A program made the translations under genes and the position numbers. Of a stretch of 64,000 nt of DNA, positions 1,501-2,184 are shown in pieces. Source of the stretch: Marivirga salinae (GTDB taxonomy: Bacteria > Bacteroidota > Bacteroidia > Cytophagales > Cyclobacteriaceae); assembly GCF_030503855.1 (NCBI RefSeq), contig NZ_CP129971.1:1619501-1683500 (forward strand). Direction: 5' to 3'. Below the pieces are notes generated by a model. That model worked only from the letters and a program-made list of their open reading frames with translations, searched no databases and was not told the DNA's origin. The stretch's first letter is position 1, and the number at the start of each line of letters is the position of its first letter.

Positions 1501-1628
1501 TGGGGATAGTAGGATTGTTCATACACACCTCCATGCCACACTTCCCCTCGCGAAGCTGATGGCCTTCGAACCTACGACCCTCCCGACATTGCCTGTCGGG
1601 ATGCGCAAAACCAACTGAGCTATATCCC
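1501..1628 (-). pseudogene. tRNA-Val-like sequence 1: interrupted T-arm and hairpin in place of the anticodon arm
   Basis: On the minus strand this copy keeps the tRNA-Val 5' part (GGGATATAGCTCAGTTGG) and the same 3' end as the intact tRNA at 1918-1992. Two things break it. About 50 nt of unrelated sequence (roughly 1517-1566) lies within the T-loop. The anticodon arm is replaced by a perfect 7-bp hairpin, TCCCGAC/GTCGGGA (1581-1587 with 1595-1601), with loop AGGCAAT on the minus strand; it has no U33 and no valine anticodon. It cannot work as a tRNA. The GIY-YIG ORF reads into its first bases and uses them for its stop codon. Confidence 0.75.
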
Positions 1629-1874
1629 TGAGTCTTTGATCAAAGCCTCAGCTCTTTTTCTGTTCTTCCAATTCTTAACTTGAAGTTCTCGATTCTGGGC
1701 TTTTGTTTTTGTAGGGTATTCTTCATTATAGGAGAGTTCCCAATCATCAGTTTTACCAGTATAGCCTTTGTGATTGGAGTTGTGTTTTCTAATTCTTTCG
1801 GAAAGTTGGTCACAGGTGTGACCGTAATAGTATTTTTCGAGAGATGGGGAGAAGAGGATGTAGAAATTGCACAT
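1620..1874 (-). CDS. Small GIY-YIG nuclease-domain protein embedded in a tRNA-Val array
   Basis: This 84-residue protein is a single GIY-YIG domain. The FYILFSP and YYYGHT strands are at residues 4-20, LSERIRKHN at 24-32 supplies the conserved Arg, and NRELQVKNWKN at 61-71 supplies the metal-binding Glu63. Length matches the small UPF0213/YhbQ-like class with no DNA-binding domain. It begins 13 nt past the terminator hairpin of the intact tRNA-Val, with no recognisable promoter of its own. Its last codons, GGG ATA TAG, are the 5' acceptor-stem bases of tRNA-like copy 1. The ORF is therefore flanked by tRNA-Val sequence on both sides, as if inserted or captured there. Activity on DNA is inferred from the family only. 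Confidence 0.75.
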   Translation of the reverse strand: MCNFYILFSPSLEKYYYGHTCDQLSERIRKHNSNHKGYTGKTDDWELSYNEEYPTKTKAQNRELQVKNWKNRKRAEALIKDSGI

Positions 1875-1887
1875 GGTGTAAAATAAA

Positions 1888-1916
1888 AAAAGGTTTGCAA
1901 AATTTGCAAACCTTTT
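1888..1916 (-). terminator. Terminator of tRNA-Val
   Basis: A near-perfect palindrome (1891-1901 with 1903-1913, AGGTTTGCAAA/TTTGCAAACCT, extended by A-T pairs) sits directly after the 3' end of tRNA-Val on the minus strand and runs into a T-run, TTTTTTTATTTTA. This is a classical intrinsic terminator. It separates the tRNA from the GIY-YIG ORF, so the ORF would need read-through or an unseen promoter. Confidence 0.8.
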
Positions 1917-1917
1917 G

Positions 1918-1992
1918 TGGGGATAGTAGGATTCGAACCTACGACCCCCTGCTTGTAAGGCAGGTGCTCTAAACCAACTGAGCTATATCCCC
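1918..1992 (-). tRNA. tRNA-Val (anticodon UAC)
   Basis: The 75-nt cloverleaf is complete on the minus strand. Acceptor GGGGATA pairs with TATCCCC and discriminator A; the D-arm is AGCTCAGTTGGTTTAGAGC. The anticodon arm is CCTGC-CTTACAA-GCAGG with U33 and anticodon UAC, and the T-arm is GTAGG-TTCGAAT-CCTAC. CCA is not encoded. It is the third unit of a minus-strand array whose first two units (2105-2184 and 2009-2088) are tRNA-like but defective. Confidence 0.95.
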
Positions 1993-2008
1993 ATTTGTAT
2001 CAAAAACC

Positions 2009-2088
2009 AGTTGATAGTTCGGATTCGAACCTACGACCCTCCCGACTTCGTGAGTCGGGATGCTCTAAACCAACTGAGCTATATCCCC
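2009..2088 (-). pseudogene. tRNA-Val-like sequence A, hairpin in place of the anticodon arm
   Basis: The 5' acceptor, D-arm, variable region and T-loop match the intact tRNA-Val. The 3' acceptor reads TATCAAC and no longer pairs with GGGGATA, and two T-stem pairs are lost. The anticodon arm is a perfect 7-bp stem TCCCGAC/GTCGGGA (2040-2046 with 2054-2060) with loop TCACGAA. That makes it 4 nt longer than the normal 5-bp arm, with no U33 and no Val anticodon. It would be transcribed with tRNA-Val but should not be aminoacylated as tRNA-Val. Confidence 0.75.
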
Positions 2089-2104
2089 ATTTATATCAAA
2101 AACC

Positions 2105-2184
2105 AGTTGATAGTTCGGATTCGAACCTATGACCCTCCCGACTTTGTGAGTCGAGATGCTCTAAACCAACTGAGCTATATTTTC
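2105..2184 (-). pseudogene. tRNA-Val-like sequence B, hairpin in place of the anticodon arm
   Basis: First unit downstream of the array promoter. It has the same architecture as copy A: a 7-bp hairpin (2136-2142 with 2150-2156, one wobble pair) and loop TCACAAA instead of the anticodon arm. The acceptor stem has decayed further (GAAAATA at the 5' end). D-arm and T-loop are still recognisable, so divergence is recent or RNA structure is under some constraint. Confidence 0.7.

Follow-up and report, generated by a model that had tools for sequence, protein, structure and literature searches.

Group I introns in the anticodon loops of transfer RNA (tRNA) genes occur with GIY-YIG enzymes, integrative elements targeted to tRNA genes keep a working tRNA on insertion and leave a tRNA fragment at the far end, and repetitive extragenic palindromic (REP) elements with their REP-associated tyrosine transposases (RAYT), as well as IS200/IS605 elements, have short palindromes at the element ends beside a single small gene for an HUH/Y1 protein. 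In the parts of PMC13096335 that cover it, the GIY-YIG enzyme SegB of phage T6 is reported to cut within tRNA genes and to be needed for the recombinational tandem amplification of tRNA-Tyr and segB, and SegB homologues in phages of Bacteroidota are mentioned; the accessible portion of PMC1564403 carries no mention of Bacteroid-. The present analysis concerns a tRNA-Val locus of Marivirga salinae, contained in a stretch of 64,000 nucleotides (nt) of contig NZ_CP129971.1 (positions 1,619,501 to 1,683,500; hereafter the window), where broken, hairpin-bearing copies of tRNA-Val accompany an intact tRNA-Val(TAC) gene and a small GIY-YIG nuclease gene. We give slightly better than even credence to the reading that this locus is the occupied site of a homing-like selfish element, which splits tRNA genes at their anticodon arm and brings a replacement tRNA with it.

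As with the free-standing phage GIY-YIG homing endonucleases, the nuclease gene is found beside tRNA genes, and SegB too tandem-amplifies a segment of tRNA plus nuclease gene (PMC13096335, parts covering SegB). Traits of such endonucleases found here are an intact GIY-YIG domain, a gene beside its presumed target and a spread that departs from host descent. Unlike SegB, the nuclease considered here is chromosomal and has 84 amino acids (aa); it forms isotype-linked clades, and a palindrome-broken copy of the same tRNA frequently comes after its gene. SegB showed no isotype preference in PMC13096335, and the parts of that paper covering SegB describe no broken tRNA copies. SegB is the strongest outside support for the homing model. 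In contrast to group I introns, no Rfam intron match is present in window positions 1-8000 (a group I ribozyme core is absent from the six Rfam matches at E<=1), and nothing suggests that the split tRNA is rejoined. In contrast to REP/RAYT and IS200/IS605, the enzyme is of the GIY-YIG type and the palindromes lie inside tRNA copies. Tyrosine and serine recombinases are too long to be encoded by open reading frames (ORFs) of 90 aa or less, and none of the 12 ORFs at positions 1400-2400, the longest of 90 aa, is of recombinase size (the Pfam scan covered the GIY-YIG ORF alone); unlike the tRNA-targeted integrative elements, the unit thus has no integrase-sized gene, carries a full replacement tRNA, has tRNA fragments on both sides and shows a hairpin in place of the anticodon arm.

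Read along the minus strand, the locus consists of a promoter-like sequence, two pseudo-tRNA-Val copies, the intact tRNA-Val(TAC), a terminator, the GIY-YIG gene, a third pseudo-tRNA and a second terminator, as follows (R1 denotes a covariance model, considered below).

2241..2248, minus strand: promoter -7 element TACATTTG, read from the sequence, 5' of the outermost copy
2105..2184, minus strand: outermost upstream (U-type) pseudo-tRNA-Val, hairpin at 2136-2156 with one G-U pair, 64.3 bits with R1
2009..2088, minus strand: inner upstream (U-type) pseudo-tRNA-Val, hairpin at 2040-2060, 96-nt period with the outer copy, 68.5 bits with R1
1917..1992, minus strand: intact tRNA-Val(TAC), 79.6 bits with the Rfam tRNA model
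1888..1916, minus strand: terminator-like hairpin of the intact tRNA, 13 pairs
1620..1874, minus strand: GIY-YIG nuclease gene, 84 aa (PF01541), stop codon inside the downstream pseudo-tRNA
1501..1628, minus strand: downstream (D-type) pseudo-tRNA-Val (copy 1), hairpin at 1581-1601, 56.8 bits with R1
1517..1564, minus strand: 48-nt imperfect-hairpin insert in the T-loop of the downstream copy, read from the sequence
1459..1491, minus strand: terminator-like hairpin after the downstream copy, 14 pairs, differing from the terminator of the intact tRNA

An earlier sequence-only reading had described three tRNA-Val-derived copies with a 7-bp hairpin in the place of the anticodon arm and one wobble in the third stem, which is borne out at all three sites, the wobble being the G-U pair of hairpin 2136-2156; the T-loop of copy 1, which it took to be kept, holds the 48-nt insert. 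It had overlooked the nuclease gene, which occupies the gap between the intact tRNA-Val and copy 1 and the TAG stop of which is the TAG in 'ATATAGCTC' of that copy. All three copies share the strand of the intact tRNA, and their hairpins begin directly after tRNA position 26 and stop directly before the variable loop, so that the entire anticodon arm is replaced. The exact pattern TCCCGAC-N3-12-GTCGGGA has two occurrences in the 64 kb; 100 dinucleotide shuffles gave none. Two kinds of copy can be told apart, as both upstream ones have an altered 3' part and the downstream one has an intact 3' acceptor end with its own terminator. The intact tRNA-Val is the sole close match to itself in the 4.49-Mb genome; the other matches of more than 50 nt, which comprise the three pseudo copies and other places, are at most 86% identical. 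The octamer TACATTTG is assigned as a -7 element on the Bacteroidetes consensus, TAnnTTTG. The 48-nt T-loop insert was considered as the start of another nuclease gene and rejected, since it reads as an imperfect hairpin.

The arrangement recurs with many tRNAs of the Bacteroidota. Set A comprises the best 80 of the 97 loci found to encode a relative when genome contigs were searched with the 84-aa protein of the window; the survey also includes a set B and a set C, the latter obtained with a profile from 16 tRNA-linked ORFs that matched 70 of 99 genomes of the class and consisting of 30 returned loci and 60 stretches chosen by descending score (a few at contig starts were skipped). Being built from a tRNA-linked profile, set C samples the nuclease's own family and not GIY-YIG proteins at large. 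When the count is limited to distinct ORFs preceded by 160 nt or more of sequence, those with a same-strand tRNA no further than 300 nt upstream number 65 of 88 in set A, 25 of 36 in set B and 51 of 96 in set C, where these tRNAs span 20 anticodons; six of the 65 upstream 'tRNAs' in set A are broken copies called by ARAGORN. The corresponding opposite-strand control tRNAs, up- and downstream, number 0 and 0 (A), 0 and 0 (B) and 1 and 1 (C). The usual order in set A is intact tRNA, terminator, GIY-YIG gene and hairpin-armed copy of that tRNA, behind which another nuclease gene often begins the next unit, and the T-arm of the broken copy fits its neighbouring tRNA, mostly Val and at some loci (e.g. 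L040, L048, L054; L-numbers denote the loci read) Arg(TCT). More distant relatives (about 27-47% identity), from Marivirga and other Bacteroidota, lie downstream of Met, Asn, Asp, Ala, Pro and Ser genes, and also of His, Glu, Thr, Phe, Leu and Arg tRNA genes. The entry of a hairpin into one ancestral tRNA that was then duplicated, an origin offered by the sequence-only reading, does not fit, because palindromes break the copies of many other tRNAs.

A repeat of the last 33 nt of the upstream tRNA was sought downstream of each ORF, and such a second copy of the 3' end follows 90 of the 138 ORFs that have an upstream tRNA and enough downstream sequence. A significant palindrome (score of at least 6 and p<=0.05 in 60 dinucleotide shuffles each) stands beside 71 of the 90 copies, and none of the 44 Val-TAC copies matches the anticodon arm. 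An extra copy was found for 36 of 71 tRNAs with an ORF within 120 nt, as against 5 of 67 tRNAs without one; four of these five control tRNAs are Met(CAT). Among the 97 distinct ORFs of the window and set A, 65 have a perfect hairpin within 160 nt, and their stop codons lie at most 26 nt before the hairpin (36), inside it (16), further upstream (12) or beyond it (1), the copies having been picked by a finder that demands pairing. The GSEHPD tail of some relatives (L045, L047) is a translation of the D-arm plus hairpin. Of 115 distinct hairpin copies (set-A loci and window), 20 were called as tRNAs, with anticodons supplied by the hairpin; the 'tRNA-Arg(acg)' and 'tRNA-Cys(aca)' that ARAGORN reports at the window copies likewise draw theirs from the hairpin loops.

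The nucleases cluster by the tRNA that they accompany. In a tree of 49 set-B and set-C ORFs, built from a short alignment of few columns in which many forks are unresolved, isotype requires 22 changes against 32.7 when shuffled (0 of 300 shuffles as low). When only rows with a shared host family are kept (38), isotype requires 17 changes against 25.3, a value that none of 300 shuffles reached, and host family requires 19 against 19.4, with 146 of 300 shuffles as low. As the tree was limited to the first 68 residues, a tRNA-encoded tail cannot help the isotype grouping. Judged from these residues, the nuclease tree tracks tRNA isotype and not host family, indicating spread off host descent.

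Two kinds of copy are discernible well beyond the window. With copies picked by the same pairing-dependent finder, 36 Val-type upstream copies from 27 loci match their own tRNA at 0.92 to the left and 0.55 to the right of the hairpin, the left side being better in 34 of 36, while 56 downstream copies from 47 loci match at 0.71 on the left and 0.87 on the right, the right side being better in 41 of 56. What survives upstream is thus the 5' half of the tRNA and what survives downstream the 3' half, with a decayed remnant left on the inner side of each copy. Upstream and downstream hairpins share the same 7-nt stem in 14 of the 17 loci that have both, compared with 91 of 272 comparisons between loci (0 of 5000 permutations). 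An insertion with a hairpin at both ends would leave matching stems and opposite asymmetry of this kind.

The position of the palindrome (score of at least 6) is largely fixed for a given isotype. In Val copies (32 of 39) and Arg(TCT) copies (4 of 4) the palindrome starts after tRNA position 26, in Met(CAT) copies (10 of 12) after position 37, and in Arg(CCT) and one further Met it is located within the anticodon loop. A palindrome containing TCC..GGA is present in 70 of the 90 second copies, although the replaced tRNA stretch differs; the palindromes in Glu, Thr, Phe and His copies are not of this kind. For covariation, Val and Arg(TCT) rows were anchored by flanking tRNA sequence alone, and 46 of 72 rows were measured (those left out are 18 without a 3'-half copy, 4 with a late start, 3 without the loop string and 1 without a left anchor). 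Six or seven of the seven positions form Watson-Crick pairs in 42 of these 46 copies, and the mean of 6.46 pairs compares with 5.40 when arms are re-paired between loci, none of 5000 permutations reaching the observed mean, with stem sequences as varied as TCCCGAC, TCCCGAT, TTCCGAT, TCCCGCT, TTCCGCA and others. The covarying arms fit a function of the palindrome as DNA or RNA alike. Since the hairpin recurs and its arms covary across loci, random decay does not account for it, as the sequence-only reading had argued.

A second palindrome breaks the T-loop in some downstream copies (e.g. L016, L025, L038, L047, L262 and that of genome G402), and in copy 1 of the window the 48-nt imperfect hairpin stands there; the motif reported for SegB, RAWTSGAAC, is similar to the complement of the tRNA T-loop. 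A pattern scan for hairpin copies, which did not require pairing, includes chance matches and served as a source of examples only, gave some match in 122 of 395 genomes. The covariance model R1 was tried as a phylum-wide counter of hairpin copies and dropped, with 390 of 395 genomes 'matched', because ordinary tRNAs reach 51 bits with it.

The window gene matches the Pfam family GIY-YIG (PF01541, E 2.5e-15) and no other Pfam family, HUH/Y1 transposases included. Eight residues (Tyr5, Tyr16, Gly18, Arg27, His31, Ala59, Glu63 and Lys67) are invariant in all 16 aligned rows from many isotypes, and the Tyr, Gly, Arg and Glu among them are presumably the catalytic set. A structure model with a mean predicted local distance difference test (pLDDT) score of 88 has UPF0213 (1zg2), Slx1 and I-TevI as its best PDB folds; Foldseek against PDB gave no match at E<=0.001, the best being 1zg2 at 1.4e-3, and the sequence profile matches 1zg2 at 3.9e-15. 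UPF0213 (1zg2, 1ywl) and Slx1, which acts in complex with Slx4 according to PDB entry titles, are therefore alike in being the nearest solved sequences and folds, and differ in that no tRNA link is named in their table entries (gene surroundings were not compared). The 31 closest homologous proteins bear, where named, only the names 'putative endonuclease' or 'GIY-YIG nuclease family protein'. The window protein has no tblastn match in phage or plasmid records at 1e-5, and two of its relatives have none in viral contigs. The gene is under purifying selection, with a ratio of nonsynonymous to synonymous substitution rates (dN/dS) of 0.10-0.22 against six distinct same-genus ORFs of at least 76% identity, and its copies in genomes G398 and G402 carry a stop. 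Low dN/dS together with these stops points to both selection and decay, the pattern expected of a selfish nuclease.

Within Marivirga the presence of the element is patchy (G000 denotes the 4.49-Mb genome of the window, and G396 to G403 and further G-numbers other genomes). At the Val locus, upstream copies, downstream copies and nuclease gene are all present in G399, G400 and G403. G396 has neither copies nor nuclease gene, and the string GTACTACATTTGCATTCCC, about 50 nt before its lone intact tRNA-Val, is the same promoter string as that of the outermost copy in the window. Relatives with normal anticodon arms at this locus were to refute the sequence-only reading; one of the seven Marivirga relatives read, G396, is such a case, and it may be read as an empty or emptied site. 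Four genomes (G397, G399, G400 and G403) have an upstream copy of tRNA-Arg(TCT) and four (G000, G396, G398 and G402) lack one; in G403 it starts at the exact base where tRNA-Arg starts in G000.

In the genome of the window itself, palindromes break copies of Arg, Glu, Asp and Lys tRNAs too. At L160 (G000:C1:2836000-2839500), 11 tandem hairpin copies of tRNA-Arg, with 6 of 7 stem pairs and a period of about 130 nt, each have a terminator-like sequence behind them, and six are miscalled tRNA-Cys(GCA) by ARAGORN from the hairpin loop. At L309 (G000:C1:2574500-2578500), two tandem intact tRNA-Glu genes precede a tandem row of three GIY-YIG genes, and behind every one of these three stands a tRNA-Glu 3' end whose T-loop contains a 28-nt palindrome. 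At L371 (G000:C1:3180500-3183500), tRNA-Asp is accompanied by several pseudo copies, most with two palindromes, one in the anticodon-arm region and the other in the T-arm. A hairpin copy also precedes tRNA-Lys in this genome. Loci L250 (G413:C1:4231000-4235000) and L251 show a tRNA-Lys/tRNA-Val pair seven times in tandem and tRNA-Met/tRNA-Val repeats, in stretches without a nuclease gene. At L253, L254, L255 and L258, in several Marivirga genomes, a sequence that by eye resembles a phage-type integrase lies directly downstream of tRNA-Arg(TCT), a tRNA that may serve two kinds of parasite.

According to the homing model, the nuclease would target unbroken tRNA genes and make a DNA cut within the anticodon arm or close to it, the tRNA beside its gene being the likely target, and homologous-recombination repair from an occupied copy would place into the cut a cassette made up of hairpin, linker, full tRNA, terminator, nuclease gene and hairpin. 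The target tRNA would be split, with the 5' half retaining the promoter and the 3' half ending up downstream, and the replacement tRNA within the cassette would keep the cell alive. Lacking the anticodon arm, split copies would no longer be cut. Repeated out-of-register repair or unequal exchange would produce tandem copies and could later delete one kind. As there is little room for a promoter of its own, the nuclease gene is proposed to be expressed by read-through of the tRNA terminator.

Several observations weigh against this model. The intact tRNA beside the gene retains the supposed target, so that the host must survive some cutting, and immunity alone does not explain why the insert is palindromic. 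At the Val locus, a downstream copy is missing from G397 and G398, where upstream copies accompany the nuclease gene, and an upstream copy is missing from G402, which has the nuclease gene and a downstream copy with an imperfect hairpin; none of the Marivirga Val and Arg loci read is a clean two-sided empty site. No nuclease gene was detected in the L160 Arg and L371 Asp arrays of the window's own genome. In set C, 45 of 96 ORFs are without a called upstream tRNA; a second copy is missing downstream of 48 of the 138 ORFs that have a tRNA upstream; of the 90 second copies, 19 are without a significant palindrome and 11 still fit the reference anticodon arm, in at least three cases since the tRNA taken as reference was itself a broken copy. 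The expected asymmetry is missing in 15 of 56 downstream copies, the palindrome is in the D-arm for Pro(CGG) and in the T-arm for Glu, Thr and Phe, and only 17 loci have both kinds of copy though 27 have upstream and 47 downstream copies. Loci with a single kind leave room for the conversion of tandem duplicates instead of insertion.

As the homing model does not by itself account for the lasting palindrome, its main rival takes the hairpin to be the DNA substrate of the enzyme. The element would then act through the palindrome, its terminal DNA hairpin, which the GIY-YIG enzyme would recognise in the manner of a structure-specific transposase; the tRNA would be only an address, and the anticodon arm would be replaced since the tRNA hairpin in single-stranded DNA would be the entry point. 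This is considered unlikely. It would accommodate the matching of upstream and downstream hairpins within a locus, the covariation of the arms, the TCC..GGA palindromes retained despite differing replaced stretches, and the mention of branched DNA in the PDB titles of the nearest solved relatives, UPF0213 and Slx1; it is weakened by the other palindromes of Glu, Thr, Phe and His, by the failure to find a GIY-YIG transposase of such a sort in the open-access literature, and by the window's own genome, where TCCCGA-TCGGGA palindromes number only 20, of which 12 are in pseudo-tRNAs (nine Asp, two Val, one Lys) and eight elsewhere, and are not a widely dispersed repeat. The conversion just mentioned would start from ordinary tandem tRNA duplication, the nuclease cutting surplus copies at the anticodon arm and repair from a hairpin copy converting them, so that the two kinds would arise separately. 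Loci with one kind of copy, and those of Algoriphagus in which intact tRNA copies stand in tandem ahead of the nuclease gene, are consistent with it, whereas the opposite asymmetry and matching stems are more directly expected from a two-ended insertion, and we regard conversion as improbable.

Ordinary tandem duplication, in which surplus copies decay and gain common palindromes that are not selected against, with the nuclease gene a bystander, is suggested by tandem intact tRNAs without a nuclease such as the sevenfold tRNA-Lys/tRNA-Val array of G413, by arrays without a detected ORF and by the second T-arm palindrome of some downstream copies. The excess of broken copies at tRNAs with an adjacent nuclease gene, the largely isotype-fixed start of the palindrome, the covarying arms and matching stems and the clustering of nucleases by isotype all speak against it and make it very improbable. 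The probability is equally slight that the element is a domesticated amplifier through which the host raises tRNA dose by nuclease-driven local amplification in the manner of phage T6 SegB; purifying selection, the tandem arrays and the SegB precedent agree with such a role, but the amplified material is mostly broken tRNA, the gene is absent at the G396 Val locus and interrupted by a stop in G398 and G402, and the nuclease tree ignores host family. The least likely reading is an RNA-level system, with the hairpin copies as decoys, processing guides or antitoxin-like RNA against a nuclease attacking the anticodon arm. The two upstream copies do stand after the promoter and ahead of the tRNA, and as RNA they fold better than shuffled sequences (z -2.8 and -3.4), and covariation suits RNA as much as DNA; against this, a decoy should retain the attacked arm, and that is the one missing from the Val copies, while other arms are struck in other isotypes. 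The roles as decoys, processing guides or RNase P/Z substrates put forward by the sequence-only reading are left without support because a terminator precedes the downstream copy, most copies are degraded on one side (downstream copies usually on the 5' side), and none of the minimum-energy RNA folds of the three window copies is a cloverleaf. The covariance-model search that it had proposed does not find good tRNAs either, copy 2009-2088 scoring 26.2 bits with the Rfam tRNA model (RF00005), below the cut-off of 29, and copies 2105-2184 and 1501-1628 giving no Rfam tRNA report at E<=1. In the predicted folds, both upstream copies (2009-2184) take on a compact shape unlike that of a tRNA, in which the altered 3' part is paired with the D-loop of the same copy.

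Returning to the homing-like element, it is possible, although somewhat less probable than not, that it belongs to an undescribed class of mobile element, consisting of site-specific GIY-YIG elements with isotype-specialised nuclease clades. These would split tRNA genes at much the same position each time, bring along a whole replacement tRNA and have selectively maintained palindromes as their boundaries. No description of tRNA-linked GIY-YIG genes in Bacteroidota was found in open-access PMC text. Recombination between the two sides could not rid the host of such an element, as it can enclose the only copy of an essential tRNA. If this is true, such elements would have made the broken-tRNA arrays seen in many Bacteroidota, some of which are miscalled as real tRNA genes, and would explain spurious tRNA predictions whose anticodons come from the hairpin. 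Many proteins named 'putative endonuclease' or GIY-YIG would gain a genomic role and a testable target. The finding further suggests that essential chromosomal tRNA genes, beyond introns or phages, can host homing-like elements with isotype-matched nuclease lineages.

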